This document shows, piece after piece, positions 3-31,632 of a DNA stretch of 31,776 nt. This DNA comes from a virus, in the IMG/VR virus record IMGVR_UViG_3300025130_000027, positions 1 through 31,776 of that record. The stretch is one strand, 5' to 3'. A model generated the notes under the pieces. It saw only the letters and a program-made list of their open reading frames with translations, was not told the DNA's origin and ran no database searches. Positions within the stretch are counted from its first letter, which is position 1. Each line of letters opens with the position of its first letter. The position numbers and the translations under genes are program-made.

Positions 3-431
3 TTAATCCGTGATCTAACTTTACGGGACGGTCAACAATCTTCATTTGCTACACGCATGAGTCAATCACAGATTGATCGAGTATTACCACTCTACAAAGA
101 CGCCAAGTTCTATGCAATGGAAGTTTGGGGTGGTGCGGTTCCCGACTCTGTTATGAGATACCTTAACGAAGACCCTTGGTATAGACTCGAGTCTATTAAA
201 AGTGTTATTGGAGATAGCAGTAAACTAACAGCCCTTTCACGAGGTCGTAATCTATTTGGATATACTCCTTACACAGATGAGATAATAGAAGGTTTCTGTA
301 AGAATTCGATAGAGTCAGGCCTTAGTATTATGAGAATATTTGATGCACTAAACGATGTTGATAATATTAAATCGACAATCAAGTATGTAAAAAAATATGG
401 AGGGATAGCTGATTGTGCAGTATGTTTATAA
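3..431 (+). CDS. Host carboxyltransferase (pyruvate carboxylase subunit B / oxaloacetate decarboxylase alpha type), 5' partial, cut by prophage
   Basis: The frame is open from the window edge (first full codon at 3) and ends at a TAA at 429 that the inserted DNA supplies. The protein starts with the HMGL/carboxyltransferase signature LIRDLTLRDGQQSSFATRM and continues with MEVWGGAVPDSVMRYL, LTALSRGRNLFGY and MRIFDALNDV, all typical of the TIM-barrel domain that moves CO2 from carboxybiotin to or from pyruvate. Members of this family normally run on past ADCAVCYT for hundreds of residues; here the match stops after ADCAVC. Only the first third or so of the barrel is encoded, so the product should be inactive. 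This is the insertion target. Whether the host uses it as an oxaloacetate decarboxylase or a pyruvate carboxylase subunit cannot be decided from this part. The sequence points to Bacteroidales. Confidence 0.9.
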   Translation, partial: LIRDLTLRDGQQSSFATRMSQSQIDRVLPLYKDAKFYAMEVWGGAVPDSVMRYLNEDPWYRLESIKSVIGDSSKLTALSRGRNLFGYTPYTDEIIEGFCKNSIESGLSIMRIFDALNDVDNIKSTIKYVKKYGGIADCAVCL

Positions 432-2108: not shown

Positions 2109-4637
2109 TCATTGGGCGCGATATACCATAAATGAAAATGCAGCGTTCTCTAAATTCCCAGGAGAGTTCCATGAATAGACTTCAAAATAGTTACTGGATG
2201 TATTCCTGGAATTCAATGTTATCATATTATCACAACTCACACCCGTTAATTGCACAATATAATTACTCTTGCCACTCATATACGAAGGTAGTGTTATTCG
2301 ATACTTACCTGTACTAACTCTTGAGCAACTTGAATCATCCCCCAATTTACACTTAATCACACCATTAATATCCACTTCACCACCACATATTAATGCTGGT
2401 ATATTAGAATCTGGAGATACGAGACCTCTGAATATTAGGCTTATTTCTCCTGCCTGTTTAAGTAGCTTAAAGAATTTATTAGAGTTTACTCGGATAGACA
2501 TCCCATCTGATCCAAAGATCGTCTCATCATCAGTAGATATAAAACTAAACACTCCCCCAGATGGTGCTAGACTTGTTCTTGCCGAAGTTGGATACGCTCC
2601 CATAACATCATACTGACTCATTAAGTCATAATTAATTGTTGCAATTACTTCAGCTTTGATAGAGCCTTTGGGTAGTTTCTCCGAAAAGGAACTATTAATA
2701 TCTAAGTTAGTTGATTGATTATAGTTACCTTTTCCAAGGATATCCATATTGGCAGTTAAACAGTAGTGATTAATATCATTCAAATGTATTTCATTGATAA
2801 TGGTGCTACCTGTACTAAGGCGAACAAATACATTCACATTAACTTTAGCGTATGCTCCAGTATTGTTGATAACAGTTGCATCTGTAACAGATGTTGATAA
2901 CACCTCCTTTTGTTTGATATTTATATTGAATACCGAATCACCATTGTTAGTAAATGTATGTGTTAACAGTGTTCTTGTTATTGTTGAAGATGCACTCGTA
3001 CCAGATACACTTGCAGACCAAGATGAGCCATTAGATCCACCAGTGCTACTTTGCGATTGAGATGCAAAATTATCAATTGATTCCCCAGTAAATTTAACCT
3101 TATCAGCCCCCGATTTATCCTTAATTGTAATCAGATCTTTAGCAATCTGAAAACATCCAATAAGCCCAGACATTGCGACAAAAAAGCCACCCTTAGATAC
3201 TGCGAATAATGGCTTATCTGTTGAGGTCCCTTTGAAGTAATTCACAGCTTTACGATATGCATTTTTAACATCAGCAAAGAATGCCACTCCATCATCTTTA
3301 AGCCCAGACATACCAGCTACTATTTCGGATTCTGCAGTACCGTTACTATTCCTAACAGATACAACATTGGACATTATTAATCCACCTTGTATTGTGGTAT
3401 CACCCTGCATTGCCTCATGGAGGTAGTCAGTATCTTCGGGAGCAGACGAGTAGTCTGTATGTGTAATTCCTACTTCTACCTTTAATTCTTTGATTTGAAC
3501 CTCGTATAATTGCCCAGAATTATCAGTTCCTTGTAGCATAATAGCAAAAATATTTCCTTTTAATGGAACATTAAATACAAACTCAGTCCATTCACTTGTT
3601 GGATAGAATCTTACTAAGCTACCATAAGCTGCAGTATTAGTAATACTACAACTATGTAATGTTCCTTCACCTGACTTGATGACTCGAGCGAAGAATCTAA
3701 CAATACAGGAATCTACAAACTTAGTCAATTGACAATATGAGTTTTGCCATCCATTTTTTGCAGACAAAACAATACATCTCTCAATAGAATCGTAGTATGG
3801 AGGTATATTACTCCAACCTCCACCTTTCCAATAATCACTCTGAGGTGGAGTATTGGTATACCTTACAAGATTCCTTCCAGGTAGTACTTCTACAGCCCCT
3901 TGAATTGTTTGCTCTATAGTTTTTCCATTAGTAAAAACAATTCCTCCAGAAGGAGACTTAATAGTACCATCAGGAGTTAATTCTAGGTTTGTACCTGTGT
4001 GCTTTATGCAACTCCCTGTAAGTAACCACCGTTTATTAACATCATCACCTACAGCTATTCCTTGAGTCCCTAGAATATCAATCCAAGCTTTATCAGCCAA
4101 CAACACTTGAGTAGCAACATTAATGAACTCATTGAAGTCTTCCCATTGAGATGATACAAATGATGAGCCTGAGGTGTGAGTCGTTTTAGCAATATATTTA
4201 TTCTTGTTATATATAACTGTATCCCTATACCTGGTATCATTTAAGTACTGAGTTCTAGCTGCCCACTCTCCTCGAGGACGTAGTATAGCTCCCGATAGCC
4301 CTATATCACCATCAGATACAATTAGAGTATTATCATTAGCTACTTGAGTGTTGCTAACAATTAGTTCCCACCTCAAAAGTTTATCTGTGGACTTAATCGA
4401 ATAGCTTGTCCCAGCAGAATATGAGTATGCAATATCCCCATTTCCACCATATAGTTTGATGGTGGCATTGGATATCTCCTCTCGTGAATTACCAATGCTT
4501 TTGTAGGCTCGAGCACTTACACTTGAGGGTATAAGTGCTCCTGCAGATGTTTTTTTAACAAGCTTATCAGATATTACTAATTCATAATTCTCTGCTATTC
4601 GTTTGATTGTAAAATTACCTTGTGCAATTAGAGCCAT
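2109..4637 (-). CDS. Tail fibre / receptor-binding-type protein
   Basis: An 842-residue protein, the most distal of the tail genes. It starts MALIAQGNFTIKRI, nearly the same as the start of the neighbouring 353-residue tail protein, which suggests a shared docking segment on the tail tip. Residues about 120-170 (GEWAARTQYLNDTRYRDTV ... Y) look like a small carbohydrate-binding module of the W-Y-x-V-Y-x-G type. Then comes a jelly-roll-like stretch (about 255-400), a segment naming S/T-G-rich repeats and a low-complexity Ser/Gly linker at about 525-550 (QSQSSTGGSNGSSWSASVSG), then a beta-rich C-terminus. This fits a long fibre that binds surface glycans. There is no obvious chaperone gene after it and no diversity-generating template repeat or reverse transcriptase. 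Assignment rests on position, size and composition more than on a named family. Confidence 0.7.
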   Translation of the reverse strand: MALIAQGNFTIKRIAENYELVISDKLVKKTSAGALIPSSVSARAYKSIGNSREEISNATIKLYGGNGDIAYSYSAGTSYSIKSTDKLLRWELIVSNTQVANDNTLIVSDGDIGLSGAILRPRGEWAARTQYLNDTRYRDTVIYNKNKYIAKTTHTSGSSFVSSQWEDFNEFINVATQVLLADKAWIDILGTQGIAVGDDVNKRWLLTGSCIKHTGTNLELTPDGTIKSPSGGIVFTNGKTIEQTIQGAVEVLPGRNLVRYTNTPPQSDYWKGGGWSNIPPYYDSIERCIVLSAKNGWQNSYCQLTKFVDSCIVRFFARVIKSGEGTLHSCSITNTAAYGSLVRFYPTSEWTEFVFNVPLKGNIFAIMLQGTDNSGQLYEVQIKELKVEVGITHTDYSSAPEDTDYLHEAMQGDTTIQGGLIMSNVVSVRNSNGTAESEIVAGMSGLKDDGVAFFADVKNAYRKAVNYFKGTSTDKPLFAVSKGGFFVAMSGLIGCFQIAKDLITIKDKSGADKVKFTGESIDNFASQSQSSTGGSNGSSWSASVSGTSASSTITRTLLTHTFTNNGDSVFNINIKQKEVLSTSVTDATVINNTGAYAKVNVNVFVRLSTGSTIINEIHLNDINHYCLTANMDILGKGNYNQSTNLDINSSFSEKLPKGSIKAEVIATINYDLMSQYDVMGAYPTSARTSLAPSGGVFSFISTDDETIFGSDGMSIRVNSNKFFKLLKQAGEISLIFRGLVSPDSNIPALICGGEVDINGVIKCKLGDDSSCSRVSTGKYRITLPSYMSGKSNYIVQLTGVSCDNMITLNSRNTSSNYFEVYSWNSPGNLENAAFSFMVYRAQ

Positions 4638-9049: not shown

Positions 9050-12000
9050 TTATTTTACTTTTAAGCCATCCCGCTTGATCTCATTGATATCATTGGAGAG
9101 TTTCTCCAGCTTTTCGTTACATCCACGTGTGTTGTTATCGATTGATCTCAGAACATCCAGAGACTCATAACCGACATCAGCCAGATCATCCATCTTATCA
9201 TCCATGGAGGAGACGTGATCTTGCACCGATGTAAATAAGCCCTCAAGCTTTGTTCCTTGTTCTTGAGACATACTCTGAAAAGCACCTGCTCCGCCTTTTT
9301 GGGCAGCATCGCCATTCTCCCAGAGATCAAAGCCGTTCTTTTTAGCTTCTTCTTTCCACTTCTCCAGCCATTCCTGCGATGCATTCATGGATGATCCGAT
9401 ATTTTCGTAAAACTTTCCGATCAAATCCATTGCATCTTTGGCAATGTCTTCCTCTTTCTTTCCGGAGGAGTAGATACCTACGAGTTCATCTTCAAGCTTC
9501 TTGAATTTATCGGAAAAGAAAAGCGTATAAGCAACCTGCTTTCCAAGCTTCTCCAGAGCATCGGAGCCTTTCTGCCTAAAAATATCCCAAGCGTCAGCTC
9601 CGGTTGTAATTGCTTCGGTAAGTGCATCCATGACACCCGGACCAATATCGCCGAACGTATCTTGCAGGTAACTTCTTAATGCTTCTTCAGCCTCTTCAGC
9701 TTGCTGTTGCAAATCAATCATTGATTGTAACAGTGCTTTATTGGCATCACTCATCTTCTCGTTATTGAGAATAGCCTGAGCACGGGCTACGTTCAACTTA
9801 TTTTCTGCATCAAGCAAATCCGGATATACATCCAGTACACTGGAATAGATATCCTTACCTTTGCCCCAACCGAATAATCCTGTCTTCTTGTGACCTGTCA
9901 CAATCTCAATACCTGATAATCCGGCAATGCCTTCGCGATATGCATTAAGCTGCTTGACATAGGCATTAAGATCACCACCTTGATAAGAAGGGCGAGAACC
10001 GGAAAGCTCATTTTTGTAAGCTTCAAGAGCAGATCGATATATCTCTACGGCTTTCGTAGCCTTGACTATTTCATCATCGCCGAATATGGACGAGGCTTCT
10101 TTCATGAGCATATTCTGCTGCATAAGGAGCAGGTTGTATTCTCTCTGAGCTGCCAACTTAGCTGTGTTGATCTCCTCAAGTGCCTTCTGATGCTTTTCTT
10201 CTGCTTTTGACGCAAATGAAAACAGTGTTGACATGATTTGAACCGCTGTTCCGATGATCGCCAGAATAACAGATGCCTTCTCAACGGCACTAATACCTTC
10301 AGCAGCGCCTTTGGATAGAAGCATAATCCCGTCAATCATCGCAATCGCACCGCCTGCAATATTAGATGCAGCCTGAAGGGCTTCTTTAGTAGTGTCGTCG
10401 AGAAAGTCCATCGATGATATCATTCCGTCAACCTCTCCTTTACACTTCTTGATTGCTGCTGAAGTTCTATCCCACTTTTGAAGACCTTTTGGATCATCGA
10501 TTTCCTGTTCAGCCTTGACCGTTTTAAGTTCGTTCTGAAGCATGGTGATTTTAGCCCGGGCAACACCTGCCGCTTGCGAGTTCTTTCCGTCGCCCAATTC
10601 GGCTGCCTTGAGCATTTTCTCAGCACTGGAGAGCTGCTTTATCAGCTCTTCCATACTCATCCGTGATAATCGCGAAGCTAATACACGGAAAGACGTTTCT
10701 TTTGCCGCAACACTCATGTCAAGCGCCTGTTGCTCCTTTTCCATAGCCTGACGCGCCTGTTCGATATTATCATCAGAAGCACCGCCTGCTCTCAATTCTT
10801 CGACTTGAGACAGGAATTTCTTTTCAATCTCCAGACGCTGTTCAGCATAGGTTAGATAAGGCTTTAAAAGCTTATCATACTTCTCCTTTACTTTTTTAGA
10901 TTCATCCGTATCGATGGTGTCAACTTTATTCTCATAAGCCTTTTTAGCCGATGTTCGCATCGTATCGCTTTGGCTTTTGATCGTATCAGATTCTTTCGGA
11001 TCAACCTTTAGCCCGGCTTTCTGAGCTTTCTTTAAAGCTTCAATGCGCTTTTGTTCCTGCTCTGTAATCTGCTGAATTTCGCGGTCGTATTCAAGCTTTG
11101 CCTGAGCGCGCTTTTTCTCTGCGCCTTCTTTCATTGCTTCGATCTCCAGTTGAGCGATCTTTAACTCCGCATCAGCTCTGTATTGAGCTGTTTTATCTTC
11201 GGTTTCTTTATTCTTACCTTTCTTTCCTCCGGTAATAGCATCCAGCTTCTTTTGCTGCGCATCGATGTCTTTCTGGAGTGCATCATATTCTTCTTTTGAG
11301 ACAGCGCGTTTTTGCTGATCCTTCTTGATCTTGATTATATCTTCCATCTGGGCTACACTCCCGGCTACAATCTCCTGAGTTTTTAAGCCCATATCTGCGA
11401 CTAGTTTATCCGCTTGCTCTGAGTACTCTTCACCCATGCGAATGAGGTTCTCGCCATCTTTGAAGATGTCTTCCGCCTCTTTTTTAGCTTTAACTCTTTC
11501 AGGATTTTCATATTCTACACTTTTCCATGAAGAAGATTTAAATACATCAATGACATTATCAGCCTCGCTGTATGTATGTGTCTTCTTCTCAGGCATAGCA
11601 TCCGCTTTTTGCATCTTTTCAATAGCCTCTTTAAAGCGTTCCCCGGCGATTTCCATAGCTGCGGCTGCCTTAGCTCTTTCAATCAATGATTGCACGAAAC
11701 GATCAGTTCCGTCATTAAATAGTGTTTCGGCATTATTGACATCCAAAACGGAAACTTCCAGCTTCTTGAATGCGTCCTGATTATCGGAAATGAATTGCTT
11801 TTGTTTAGTGAGATCACCCTCCATATCCTTCCATTTCTGCTGAAGATCCTTGTAGGAGGAAATTAGTTTTGTTGCCGATTCCGAAACAGCCTTTCTGAAG
11901 TCTTCATTTGTCGTAATCGTATCAGAAAGCATTTTTTTTGCTCCACCCAGTGACTTTGTCCAGTTAACGATCTCTTTACCATAGACAACAAGAAGGGTAA

Positions 12001-25909: not shown

Positions 25910-26176
25910 TTAATTAATATATTGCCCATTTAGCCCAAAAAAGAAATCACAATCAACTTCTTCAATATTGTTTATTTTGCAGATAATATTTTCCCAGCAA
26001 CCAGTTTCAAGCATTTTATCTGATAAAACCTTGACCTTGGCTTTAACATATTCCTCAACTAACGTCCTATCTTCGATCAACATTAACCCAGACTTCTCTT
26101 GGCTATATTTTCTATCTGTGCTAACCTCCGATGCTGTAAACATTAGTTCTACTAAATATAGATTACTTCGTTTCAT
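25910..26176 (-). CDS. Hypothetical early protein
   Basis: An 88-residue acidic protein starting MKRSNLYLVELMFTASEV. It has a strand-helix-strand pattern and two cysteines (GCWENIICKI). Its start codon shares one base with the stop of the DUF3164-like gene (TAATG), so it is translationally coupled. I recognise no family. Confidence 0.6.
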   Translation of the reverse strand: MKRSNLYLVELMFTASEVSTDRKYSQEKSGLMLIEDRTLVEEYVKAKVKVLSDKMLETGCWENIICKINNIEEVDCDFFFGLNGQYIN

Positions 26177-26799
26177 TACTCAACTGCTGATATTGATAGA
26201 GGGACACTCTTTTCCTTACCATCTTCTCCACGAACAATAACCTCAACAAATCGACAAGACTTCTTCGGTTTATATGCCTCCTTAATAATCTTAATTCCTT
26301 CCAAGAAACTTTGATTATTACTCTGTACTGCAATTTGCTCAAGCTCTACAACTCTTGATGCCCTTAGGTTACCTTGTCTATCCTTAGCTAAGAGTCTCAT
26401 CACAGTATCAACAAGAGAAGCAGAGTCGCTATCTTTTGCTAAAGTTGCTAGATAAGTTTTTACCTTCTCAACACCGACATCAACAGTATCATCATATGAT
26501 TCCGTTACCCTATGCCCAATGGTTATTGATCTACTACCATCTAGGGCTGAGAATGTATGAGTTTGCTGACTACTCTTAATACCATATAGCTCAGCTTTCA
26601 TCTCTAGAATATTAGCGAATGATTCATACACCTCATTTTTTACTCTAGAAAGCTCTTGAGAGAGATCTAGTATCTTAGGTACCAACATTTCTACTGTTTC
26701 GTTTACTAAGGCTTTATAAGCCTCTCTTTCTTGTCTCTCTGCATTCTCTGCTGCTCTTAGCCTTTCTCTTAATTCAGCTACAGTCTCTCTATTTTCCAT
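26176..26799 (-). CDS. DUF3164-like protein
   Basis: A 207-residue protein with an N-terminal coiled coil (AELRERLRAAENAERQEREA), then LYGIKSSQQTHTFSALDGSR, SITIGHRVTESYDDTVDVGV and a C-terminal SCRFVEVIVRGEDGKEKSVP. The order helix, G-x-x-x...DGS strand, helical bundle with RASRVVELEQI and a final strand pair fits the DUF3164 family of Mu-like phages. It is encoded in the early region between the transposition genes and the late activators. Function is unknown; a role in DNA handling is possible. Confidence 0.7.
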   Translation of the reverse strand: MENRETVAELRERLRAAENAERQEREAYKALVNETVEMLVPKILDLSQELSRVKNEVYESFANILEMKAELYGIKSSQQTHTFSALDGSRSITIGHRVTESYDDTVDVGVEKVKTYLATLAKDSDSASLVDTVMRLLAKDRQGNLRASRVVELEQIAVQSNNQSFLEGIKIIKEAYKPKKSCRFVEVIVRGEDGKEKSVPLSISAVE

Positions 26800-28393: not shown

Positions 28394-29269
28394 TCATTTA
28401 TTAAGCTTACGCTTTGCCTTATGGACTGCTTTCTTTACTCTTCTCAAGTCATATTGACAATTACTTATCTCACCGATTATATCCCTTATACTTTTATCAT
28501 CAGATATATTATTTGCTGAGCATATCAAATAAATATCTTTAGCATCCGCTGGATCAACCTCAAAGAACTTCCTTCCAAGCCTAGAATCAAGCTCTTGATA
28601 TCCTTGCTTATTATACCTTAATCCATTAGTCATTCTACGCTTAATGTAATTGGTTGATAAGAAGATTATACCAGCTTTGTCCTCTAGTGTATTATACAAA
28701 GTGATGAAATACTGAAATACCTTATCAGATAGCTTATCAGCCTCATCAAATATTAGCAGGGGGGAGTCCATCTGGACTACTCTTGAGATAACCTGCTTTA
28801 ATAGATTTCTTGAAGATGAATATCTCTCTGTTTGAGATATCCCAATAGCTGTTGCTAATTCACCTACTAGGTCATTCTTTCGCATATCCTCAGAGCATTG
28901 TATCATGAATACTTCCTTGTGCTTTGACTTATACATCGTCGCTGTTGTTGTTTTTCCAGATCCAGCAGGTGCCACTACCCACGTTACATTCTTATATACC
29001 TGAGCATCTGATAATGCAAAATAGATCTCCTTAAATGGTCTTGTCTCAGTTATATTCCATCCAGATGATGACCTCATAACTTGAGAAGCTACATTCTTCC
29101 ACATCTCATCTGATACGAGCTCTATTTTAGAGTTTAATATTTGGGATATTGTTGCAGATGAAACTCCACTCAAGGACGCTGATGCTTTGTTCTGTGATGG
29201 GTAATTAGCAACATATGTTCTTAATGCCTCTGTTATCTCTTGCTTCTGCTTTTCATTTAATAGTGCCAT
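28394..29269 (-). CDS. MuB-like AAA+ transposition target ATPase
   Basis: A 291-residue protein with an N-terminal helix-turn-helix (KASASLSGVSSATISQILN, 28-46), Walker A APAGSGKTT (100-108), Walker B LLIFDEAD (171-178) and a sensor strand GIIFLSTNYIKRR. This matches MuB (312 residues), which binds target DNA as ATP-dependent filaments, delivers it to the transposase and gives immunity to self-insertion. The start is 15 bases past the transposase stop, as with Mu A and B. Confidence 0.93.
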   Translation of the reverse strand: MALLNEKQKQEITEALRTYVANYPSQNKASASLSGVSSATISQILNSKIELVSDEMWKNVASQVMRSSSGWNITETRPFKEIYFALSDAQVYKNVTWVVAPAGSGKTTTATMYKSKHKEVFMIQCSEDMRKNDLVGELATAIGISQTERYSSSRNLLKQVISRVVQMDSPLLIFDEADKLSDKVFQYFITLYNTLEDKAGIIFLSTNYIKRRMTNGLRYNKQGYQELDSRLGRKFFEVDPADAKDIYLICSANNISDDKSIRDIIGEISNCQYDLRRVKKAVHKAKRKLNK

Positions 29270-29284
29270 TGTTTATCTGTGTTA

Positions 29285-31327
29285 TTATAGTTTCTCAATC
29301 ATTGAATATTCGTCATAATTACTTAGCTCCTTTGTCCAGGCTCCTGCTTCAATAGGGATATCAATATTGGTTGATCGTTCGATATCACTGGAAGCGAACT
29401 CCTCCATCCACTTGTCAACCTTCGGGAGAGAAATTCCTTTAAGTCTAGGTCGATTAAAGCCATGCTGCTCAGGATTAGTCCCGTGTAAGGTCTCTAGCTC
29501 TGCTGACTCCATGTCTCTTCTTATACGTTCCTTTTTATTAAGTATATCCATTGTAGTTATGAATGAACGCTCTCCTGCCTTTTGCTCTTGCGTTGCTCGA
29601 TGAATCTCAGCAAATGGTAATGCTTCAGCTGCATAAACGAGTGATCCATCAAGCCCCTCTGTATACAATCTAACCTTGGTTAAATCCTTAGGGTCATATT
29701 TCGTGAAATACTTCCTTCCTATATTCTTTGAATAGAAGCCTAGGTCAGGCATTTCATTCTTATACACCTCATAGTGGTGCTCTACACCATCTATTGTTAT
29801 TGTGATACCTCTGGTTTTGTATGTGGATGCTCTATCAGTGGTCTTCCAGAACATATTAACCATATCTATATCACTTATTACAGGGGCCTCATGGTTAACG
29901 CTACTAGTGTACATCTCCATTCTAGGCCTTGTGGTCTCATGGTGCTGATCCCAGTTCCATTTATTGCGAGCCTCAGCATACATTGCTTTAAGTTCTGGTA
30001 GTGTAGGTAGAGAGGCCTTATTTGCTTCTAAGAACTCTATATTAACACGACTTTTCTTACTCTTGGCTGTAATATTCATTCCAGTAAAATTGTACATCTC
30101 AGAGAGAACACTTTGTTGAAATCGACCAAATACTGACTCTATGGATTTTGATGGACCATTATAGGGAGCAGTATATCTTTGGATCCGACAAATAAGATCA
30201 AAGAAATTCGCTGATTTAAGCTTCCTGTGCCCTCCTTGATTATCAACCACAATTTCATACGGTCTATGTCCTGAGGTCTCAATAGCCATTCTGTAAGAGT
30301 TATACTGAGCGTCATAGTTCTCACTATCTGAAATGTGATATCCTAGTAGAACCTCGGAATATGCATCCATTACTTCATAGACTTGAGTTGTTCTGACCTT
30401 TAGGCTTCCTGATTCATCATATGCTTTATAATATAGGTTCAATTTGGTACCATCTCCATACCAGAGGGCATCTCTCATTGTTGGCATTTTTGTTCTGTGC
30501 TGACGAGAGAATTTCATCTTTGCATCAAGTTCGCCAAAGGAGGCATCGTACCATCTGGGTAAAACCTCGGGCCTTTGTAGAAACTTTCTTATTGTTCCTC
30601 GATCTTTTAAAGCCTTCCATCCTTTATTAATAGCAACTTCATTATACATCTCGAAGATCCGCTTATCTGTGTACACAGGAGTTCTTGATCTCTTCATGGC
30701 TACTATCCAGTCTTGAGCATCATCTGTTAGCTTGATCGTATTAGAGTTTCCTTTCTTTTTAGAGACCAGGGCAATGTAACCATCTCTCTTATATTCTCTA
30801 ACCTTTACTTTGAACCGAGATAAGCTTATATTTATAGAGTGCTCCTCTATTCTAGCAAGCTTCTCATAGGCATCCTCCCAGAATCTTTTTGGTGTACCCC
30901 CCATAACTGCGGCATAACTTCTTCTATGTGCCATATCAGCTATTATCCAGTTTAATGCACTGGCATTGGCTACATATTCTCGTTGCTCAAATTCTGTAAG
31001 CTCAATGCCTGTAATACGAGGATACTCAATTGCGAAAAATTGCTCAGCTTTTCCGTCGACATCAGCATAAATTGGCTCATTACTCTGCTTATCCATCAAT
31101 ATCTTAACAGGATCACCATATTTATCAATATATCGACGTTTGTATTTCTCTGGTATGGAAAGCCAATCTATGAGGGTGTAACTACCTCTAATTCCGTCTT
31201 TTACTATTCTGAAGAGATTTTTTTTGATATAGTATCGATATGTTTCTATAAGAAAAATGGGATTCCCATCATCATCACGAATGAGCTCTTCTTTCGATAC
31301 ACATACTGTTTTGTTCCAATATTCCAT
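29285..31327 (-). CDS. MuA-like DDE transposase
   Basis: The start at 31327 (MEYWNKTVCVSKEELIRDDD) gives 680 residues, close to MuA (663). The frame is open back to 31384, but those 19 codons cross a tRNA-like hairpin and read SIGSNPMPGTN, unlike coding sequence. Catalytic residues: D292 in WYGDGTKLN, D362 in EIVVDNQGG and E397 in GPSKSIESVFG, with spacing 70 and 35 (MuA 67 and 56). The N-terminal 230 residues should bind the end repeats; the C-terminus (from about 480) carries the beta-barrel and the MuB contact tail. It cuts and joins phage ends for both integration and replication. Confidence 0.93.
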   Translation of the reverse strand: MEYWNKTVCVSKEELIRDDDGNPIFLIETYRYYIKKNLFRIVKDGIRGSYTLIDWLSIPEKYKRRYIDKYGDPVKILMDKQSNEPIYADVDGKAEQFFAIEYPRITGIELTEFEQREYVANASALNWIIADMAHRRSYAAVMGGTPKRFWEDAYEKLARIEEHSINISLSRFKVKVREYKRDGYIALVSKKKGNSNTIKLTDDAQDWIVAMKRSRTPVYTDKRIFEMYNEVAINKGWKALKDRGTIRKFLQRPEVLPRWYDASFGELDAKMKFSRQHRTKMPTMRDALWYGDGTKLNLYYKAYDESGSLKVRTTQVYEVMDAYSEVLLGYHISDSENYDAQYNSYRMAIETSGHRPYEIVVDNQGGHRKLKSANFFDLICRIQRYTAPYNGPSKSIESVFGRFQQSVLSEMYNFTGMNITAKSKKSRVNIEFLEANKASLPTLPELKAMYAEARNKWNWDQHHETTRPRMEMYTSSVNHEAPVISDIDMVNMFWKTTDRASTYKTRGITITIDGVEHHYEVYKNEMPDLGFYSKNIGRKYFTKYDPKDLTKVRLYTEGLDGSLVYAAEALPFAEIHRATQEQKAGERSFITTMDILNKKERIRRDMESAELETLHGTNPEQHGFNRPRLKGISLPKVDKWMEEFASSDIERSTNIDIPIEAGAWTKELSNYDEYSMIEKL

Positions 31328-31347
31328 ATCTGATATTTTTAAATTTG

Positions 31348-31390
31348 TTCCCGGCATCGGATTCGAACCGATGCTAAAAACCATTCGGGA
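31348..31390 (-). other. tRNA T-arm/acceptor-like element upstream of the transposase
   Basis: On the minus strand a 7-base stem GCATCGG/CCGATGC closes the loop TTCGAAT (stem 31368-31374 with 31354-31360, loop 31361-31367), exactly the TPsiC loop consensus. Outside it, TCCCG (31390-31386) pairs with CGGGA (31353-31349), followed by ACA, like an acceptor stem with a 3' ACA tail. There is no D arm or anticodon arm; 11 bases (31385-31375) take their place. It lies between the stop codon at 31391 and the transposase start at 31327. It is either a tRNA fragment picked up by the phage or a tRNA mimic in the mRNA leader. Confidence 0.6.
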
Positions 31391-31603
31391 TTAGATTTGG
31401 TCTTTATATTCAGCGAAGTATATCTCTTTGTCATCTTCTCTTCCCTCTGCCATACACTCCCCAGCTATAGAGTCAGCGTTCATACACCCAGAAGCATATT
31501 GAAATACGCACTTCTCACAGTTATTACCCTCAACACATATTATATCAATACCTAATCTTTCAATAGCCCTGACCTCTCCAACTTTCATATTATTTATATT
31601 CAT
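31391..31603 (-). CDS. Small cysteine-rich protein, possible zinc-binding
   Basis: The start at 31603 gives MNINNMKVGEVRAIERLGID and 70 residues; an earlier TTG at 31615 is possible but the ATG is preferred. It holds four Cys in the order C-x2-C-x7-C-x9-C (CEKC, SGCMN, GECM), followed by GREDDKEIYFAEY. Small Cys-cluster proteins of this type are common in the early regions of Bacteroides phages. It may bind zinc; function is unknown. The stop codon directly abuts the tRNA-like element. Confidence 0.7.
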   Translation of the reverse strand: MNINNMKVGEVRAIERLGIDIICVEGNNCEKCVFQYASGCMNADSIAGECMAEGREDDKEIYFAEYKDQI

Positions 31604-31632
31604 GGTTATTACCAATTATGTGATTACAATAT

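Follow-up and report, generated by a model that had tools for sequence, protein, structure and literature searches.

A tRNA-like element (TLE) lies on the minus strand at positions 31346-31390 of the window (the whole 31,776-nt stretch of DNA analysed), between the stop codon of an early gene and the start codon of a MuA-like transposase gene. The data establish the TLE itself, together with its conservation as a structure, its place, its strand, its spacing to the ATG and its host-like 3′ signature. We give a probability of roughly 0.6 to the reading that it acts in cis, without decoding, as a signal by which host RNase P/RNase Z process the early mRNA ("tRNA punctuation").

The window record is a Mu-like transposable phage. 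The transposase gene (29285-31327, minus strand) encodes 680 aa with the conserved start M1-E2, the match to Pfam rve being below cut-off. It is followed on its 3′ side in the early operon by a MuB-like AAA ATPase (28394-29269, minus strand; Pfam AAA_22 and a weak Phage-MuB_C match), and a DUF3164 protein is encoded at 26176-26799 (minus strand). The upstream early gene (31391-31615, minus strand), without known domain, is an ORF from TTG 31615, with an ATG at 31603, that ends in TAA at 31393-31391. The true start of the transposase is ATG 31327, with M1-E2 invariant among relatives. A longer ORF from ATG 31384, which runs through the tRNA-like element, was rejected as it is not conserved and the relatives start at the position of ATG 31327. 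In BK068094.1 and BK068089.1, the annotated transposase starts 72 nt upstream of the conserved start and the deposited protein runs through the tRNA-like element. The nearest named relatives of the window transposase are the Porphyromonas gingivalis transposable phages and Bacteroides hankyphage p00 (43-46% identity), which belong to the proposed family Alisviridae and insert by non-site-specific transposition (PMC10367356). The window phage is a Mu-like phage of Bacteroidales, of a group found in gut and oral settings (the hankyphage family). Beside the phage end, an ORF at 3-431 (plus strand; no Pfam match) resembles by eye a broken carboxylase-type host gene, which is consistent with transposition into a host gene.

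Read directly on the minus strand, 31390-31346 is TCCCG-AATGGTTTTTA-GCATCGG-TTCGAAT-CCGATGC-CGGGA-A-CA, an acceptor and T-arm minihelix (mini form) from U1 to the A after C74, where N73 denotes the discriminator position and C74 the base after it. The 5′ strand of the acceptor-like stem, TCCCG (31386-31390), identified by pairing and by covariation in relatives, abuts the upstream stop codon, so that the TLE begins at the base right after the TAA. The linker AATGGTTTTTA (31375-31385; 11 nt) replaces the D-arm, the anticodon arm and the variable region and contains an invariant GG at 31382-31381. The T-arm (31354-31374) has a 7-bp stem, GCATCGG/CCGATGC (strands 31374-31368 and 31360-31354), and a canonical T-loop, TTCGAAT (31367-31361). 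The 3′ strand of the acceptor-like stem, CGGGA (31349-31353, position 72 being 31349), is followed by the 3′ tail A73-C74-A (31346-31348; A73 at 31348, C74 and A at 31347-31346), with discriminator and C as in host tRNA genes. The two stems total 7 + 5 = 12 bp, the length of the tRNA acceptor/T stack. From N73 to the transposase ATG there is an A/T-rich leader of 20 nt (31328-31347, minus strand), of which 18 nt remain after C74-A. The sequence-only reading had described the 7-bp stem with its TTCGAAT loop, the 5-bp TCCCG/CGGGA stem and the 3′ ACA between stop codon and transposase start, and sequence reading and folding confirm every part of this. The minimum free energy fold matches these stems (-17 kcal/mol, z -2.3/-2.4). 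In a 121-nt context the T-hairpin persists, and other pairings compete with the outer 5-bp stem.

Under a strict definition (T[TC]CRANN loop, 5/5 T-stem, 5/5 acceptor, C74) the window contains one match, the element at 31346-31390, and shuffled windows average 0.12 (both strands). ARAGORN and Rfam searches of the window returned no match at all, including to the Rfam tRNA family (RF00005). Among the 14 relatives scanned, RF00005 exceeded its gathering cut-off only in L004, L034 and an upstream element of L091. Membership of a known Rfam family was thus rejected: none is present in the window, and RF00005 is the only one found, in near-cloverleaf relatives. A TLE from a single window is only suggestive; the relatives make the case decisive, because 34 of 137 loci have the element at this place as against 0.4 in shuffles.

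Viral contigs, genomes and phage records supplied the transposase relatives, which came to 137 loci once redundancy was removed; on genome contigs a single-protein query gave no matches, whereas an alignment query recovered relatives. The closest contig (L001), with a 100% identical transposase, has the same TLE base for base. Distant relatives, with transposases about 40-50% identical, have different letters in the same architecture at the same spot. Absence of the element from close relatives, which had been named as grounds for abandoning it, was looked for and is not the case, given the identical copy in L001 and the separate versions in distant phages. The TLE of Porphyromonas phages reads CCCGTG...GCGGGTTCGAATCCCGCCACGGGGACA, that of Phocaeicola TCCCGGACGGTCTTTTGAGGTGGTTCGACTCCGCCTCCGGGGACA and that of Petrimonas TCCCGGACGGCATACACACCTGGTTCGAGTCCAGGGCGGGAACA, and those of L160 and L200 read GGAGAGG...CCTCTCC and CAGGGGA...TCCCCTG-ACCA. 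With a scored definition, a TLE lies within 45 nt of the transposase ATG in at least 34 of the 137 loci (dinucleotide shuffles: mean 0.4, maximum 2) and in 16 of 49 clusters at 70% transposase amino acid identity. Adding by eye two looser classes, one with an AGCGATA loop and one with a TTGCACA tail, brings the adjacent elements to 52 of 135 loci; several TLE classes, these two among them, have poor T-arms. About a third of the related loci (44/135) have no recognisable TLE, so the element is not essential to the phage family. These 44 loci reflect either loss, other signals or forms outside the scanner's reach.

The placement is strand-specific. A strict scan of both strands of 1.17 Mb gave 50 matches, every one in the sense of the transposase. 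Of these, 46 precede the transposase ATG by 15-1563 nt and four are downstream, one of the latter (in L202) inside the transposase gene, where it looks like a chance match. The gap from N73 to the ATG is 13-24 nt (sd 2.7, n = 30 adjacent elements) and that from the upstream stop to U1 is 0-101 nt. As the former is tight and the latter loose, the position of the TLE is set by the downstream start codon. Most distal TLEs precede a small early gene, at 16-50 nt from its start. A slightly relaxed scan of the complete hankyphage p00 and Porphyromonas phage010a genomes detects a single TLE in each, in the early region. Across about 27 Mb, comprising seven whole bacterial genomes, a covariance model built from five mini elements matched prophage elements only. 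The model also recovered an independent near copy of the window TLE, TCCCGAATGGTTATTCCGGAGTTCGATTCTCCGGCGGGAGCA, at L304:4959-5000, before a DUF3164 homologue rather than the transposase, which suggests that the TLE is a portable mark for early genes and no fixed part of the transposase gene. In the Petrimonas prophage L249 a second mini element (11140-11184) stands some 4 kb downstream of the transposase. It precedes a 36-aa ORF, after which come ORFs that by eye are DnaA-C-like and DNA cytosine methyltransferase-like. L091 has a far-upstream TLE (936-1029) with an elongated anticodon region, plus an adjacent TTGCACA-class element at about 3430-3472.

Pairs were counted on linker-free composites of 49 elements, since a MAFFT alignment of all mini elements misregistered the 11- and 12-nt types. 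In the composites 99.2% of cells are paired (60% in shuffled ones), nine of ten pairs show changes on both sides, and double-changed cells number 179 versus 64 when shuffled. The covariation score is 0.93; shuffled composites reach 0.21 and slid ones no more than 0.26. Because the search for acceptor 5′ strands itself relied on pairing, the covariation of the acceptor stem is inflated; the shuffled locus searches (34 versus 0.4) are the unbiased control. In the T-loop C56 and A58 are invariant and R57 is always a purine; the scan demanded these bases, and the elements found by hand agree. Of 60 TLEs, 59 have C directly after N73, and N73 itself is A or G in 54; for comparison, the 3′ end with which RNase P RNA pairs is RCC/RCCA. 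C75-A76 (the full CCA) is not conserved, only C74 is; likewise in all listed tRNA genes of three host genomes, C follows N73 and CCA is not encoded. Every element measured has the RNase P minihelix hallmark of an acceptor/T stack of about 12 bp with a T-loop, the distance between T-loop and N73 being 11 or 12 nt. Judged by these comparisons, the constants across TLEs are the acceptor/T domain, N73-C74 and an exclusively sense orientation, and we regard the window TLE as neither a chance match nor a relic. A GG near the start of the linker occurs in 18/18 mini elements (8.3 expected). In tRNA the D-loop GG (G18-G19) pairs with the T-loop; the linker GG of the mini form probably mimics it, docking in the T-loop and rebuilding the elbow. 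Pair 3-70 is C-G, G-C, A-U or U-G across TLEs and C-G in the window. A tmRNA or alanine-accepting minihelix was considered and set aside, the G3-U70 wobble being absent.

Between the constant ends, TLE bodies range from the 11-nt GG-bearing linker of the window to near-cloverleafs that have a D-arm but no anticodon arm capable of decoding. The acceptor and T-arm are common to L160 and L161, whose bodies measure 12 and 45 nt; the Porphyromonas loci L004 and L248 keep acceptor and T-arm around bodies of 41 and 89 nt. Distal TLEs, 80-84 nt long, come close to a cloverleaf: their D- and T-arms are intact and their anticodon arms aberrant. The element of hankyphage p00 (L345, BK010646.1) at 1767-1850 is called tRNA-Arg(CCT) by ARAGORN and is missing from the record's annotation. 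Its anticodon arm is non-canonical (4 bp, a 3x1 internal loop, 4 bp and a 6-nt loop); it is probably a member of the TLE family and no decoding tRNA, and near-cloverleaf TLEs generally are not taken as decoding tRNAs because of such arms. For the window element, identity as a decoding tRNA was likewise rejected: the 7-bp acceptor/5-bp T-arm arrangement is found, but an 11-nt linker stands where the anticodon and D arms would be, and the distal anticodon arms are aberrant. On a FastTree tree of 135 transposases, where the window's branch is long and its exact place unsure, adjacent TLEs occur in several deep clades and distal TLEs on the Bacteroides/Prevotella side, with 21 changes of TLE class versus 71.5 for shuffled labels. 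Other recurrent stretches accompany some of these loci. The sequence GGCAGAAAGATTGCCGGATAACTGACAGCCCGGAAAGACGGGC (two hairpins) occurs in L125, L126, L276, L261, L214, L215, L216, L218, L017, L186 and L257, usually directly 5′ of the distal TLE. L219 has two copies of a GGGATGGC..CCGGAAAGACGGG unit before the transposase (about 1862-1980). In the Muribaculaceae-type loci L033, L153, L303 and L310, a common CCCGTGAGGGCGCCTCCGCCGAGAGCGGCGGGAAACAG-like stretch with strong hairpins, possibly another RNA element, is located about 80-150 nt upstream of the TLE.

We favour the processing signal because the features kept are those that tRNA-maturation enzymes measure, namely the 11/12-bp stack, the T-loop and C74. 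The acceptor stem and T-arm would form a 12-bp coaxial helix gauged by these host enzymes; the predicted cuts are by RNase P in front of U1 (31390/31391) and/or by RNase Z behind A73 (31348/31347). Cleavage would part the message of the upstream early gene from that of the transposase, leave the latter with a uniform, short, unstructured A/U-rich leader of about 20 nt and so set transposase output; the cutting and the enzymes involved are likewise predicted. RNase P gauges the T-loop/acceptor stack by length and the D-loop is dispensable (PMC4919913), and its known substrates other than tRNA include phage RNAs (PMC11143913). The arrangement, a tRNA-like structure between early genes on the sense strand, is the hallmark of t-elements. 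The sequence-only reading had offered either a site in the mRNA for tRNA enzymes or a relic of insertion at a tRNA gene. The former stands as the best-supported mechanism, being in line with the same place and strand, the 11-12-nt ruler, the host-like N73-C74 and the covarying stems in relatives, while the latter did not hold up. Against processing it counts that in the longer context the outer 5-bp stem has little strength of its own, and that the tight ATG spacing could directly serve translation.

The latter point leads to the main rival, an uncleaved leader whose tRNA-like fold influences in cis how the transposase mRNA is translated or how stable it is, for example by binding EF-Tu, TruB or TrmA or by blocking ribosome loading or exonucleases. 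The fixed 13-24 nt to the ATG corresponds to the edge of the initiating ribosome's footprint, and the conserved T-loop TTCRA would suit binding as well as cutting, which sequence evidence alone cannot separate. By itself, however, a leader of this kind leaves the host tRNA 3′ rule after N73 and the 11-12-nt ruler unexplained, and we consider it unlikely. The near-cloverleaf form of the distal elements (80-84 nt, intact D- and T-arms), which processing would release, could also point to genes for small trans-acting tRNA-like RNAs (a decoy against tRNA-targeting defence, or a regulator) merely carried in the early operon. This is improbable, as the mini forms have no anticodon or D arm, no body sequence is common between clades, and trans action needs neither a sense-only orientation nor a fixed site in front of a start codon.

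A phage tRNA gene in decay, or the remnant of an insertion at such a gene, would account for the near-complete cloverleafs of hankyphage and others in the same operon and for the likeness of the window form to a tRNA minus its D and anticodon arms. Yet compensatory changes throughout the acceptor and T stems maintain the TLE, the anticodon arm of the hankyphage element is itself non-canonical, and the placement is fixed in many clades. Insertion in this phage group, moreover, is random and without site preference (PMC10367356, PMC6199706). We give decay little credence, descent of the TLE from an ancient tRNA gene being possible. As DNA, GCATCGGATTCGAACCGATGC is a near-perfect inverted repeat between genes, which would fit an operator or an intrinsic terminator, palindromic by accident. 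The site lacks a U-tract and receives no terminator call; an operator, for its part, is at odds with matches on the sense strand only and with conservation of the asymmetric N73-C74, GG and acceptor strand but not of the sequence itself, so that this account is very improbable. A chance hairpin, with about 0.12 such elements expected per window-sized sequence, is hardly credible given 34/137 at the homologous site against 0.4 expected.

Beyond the single site, we tentatively propose, at slightly less than even odds, that minimal tRNA mimics, the smallest about 45 nt long and made up of acceptor stem, T-arm and an elbow-forming GG, serve as portable cut marks between early genes of Bacteroidales transposable phages and so represent a novel type of mRNA leader. 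Host tRNA maturation would then be tied to transposase output and to the choice between lysogeny and replication, the body being free while the measured part is kept. In the open-licence literature searched, we found no description of a TLE in transposable phages; a tRNA goes unmentioned in the main texts of the hankyphage papers, and in PMC12629997 one appears solely as an integration site. If the punctuation reading is true, tRNA punctuation of mRNA, known from organelles, would also be built into a widespread gut and oral phage group, and the family would have escaped notice through its changeable body and a core below the length that tRNA finders require. A "tRNA" reported by ARAGORN in an early operon of this kind would then not necessarily be a decoding one, and annotated transposase starts that traverse the tRNA-like element would be wrong. 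The family would also supply naturally occurring tRNA mimics of graded, decreasing size with which to probe the needs of RNase P, RNase Z and the CCA-adding enzyme.

Among known systems, the MALAT1 mascRNA and the MEN-beta tRNA-like RNA are non-decoding tRNA-like modules that RNase P and RNase Z release from a longer transcript, where they sit at a eukaryotic lncRNA 3′ end and serve 3′-end formation. Both are RNase P substrates (PMC4919913); the TLE resembles them as a non-decoding tRNA-like module and differs in location. The non-tRNA substrates of bacterial RNase P (pre-4.5S, pre-tmRNA, phage C4 and M3 RNA, operon mRNAs; PMC11143913, PMC4919913) similarly display an acceptor/T-stem stack with a T-like loop, and some are phage-derived; they are single cases, whereas TLEs form a family that is conserved across the phylogeny of one phage group, within a single operon. 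The armless mitochondrial tRNAs of Romanomermis are likewise small and hairpin-like, with arms lost, but keep the anticodon and lose the D and T arms, while the TLE keeps the T-arm and loses the anticodon (PMC7730189). The phage-encoded tRNA gene call in hankyphage p00, "tRNA-Arg(CCT)", shares the operon and the acceptor/D/T architecture with the TLE family and departs from a tRNA gene in its anticodon arm. Close in arrangement to the predicted function are mitochondrial tRNA punctuation and plant mitochondrial t-elements (Ojala 1981; Forner 2007), which, as summarised in PMC8003010, are RNase P/RNase Z cut sites. There, too, tRNAs or tRNA-like structures lie between genes, marking cuts in polycistronic RNA that give short untranslated mRNA ends; the TLE differs in belonging to phages of bacteria, at a fixed 13-24 nt before an ATG, and in its minimal acceptor/T-arm forms, with cutting a prediction.
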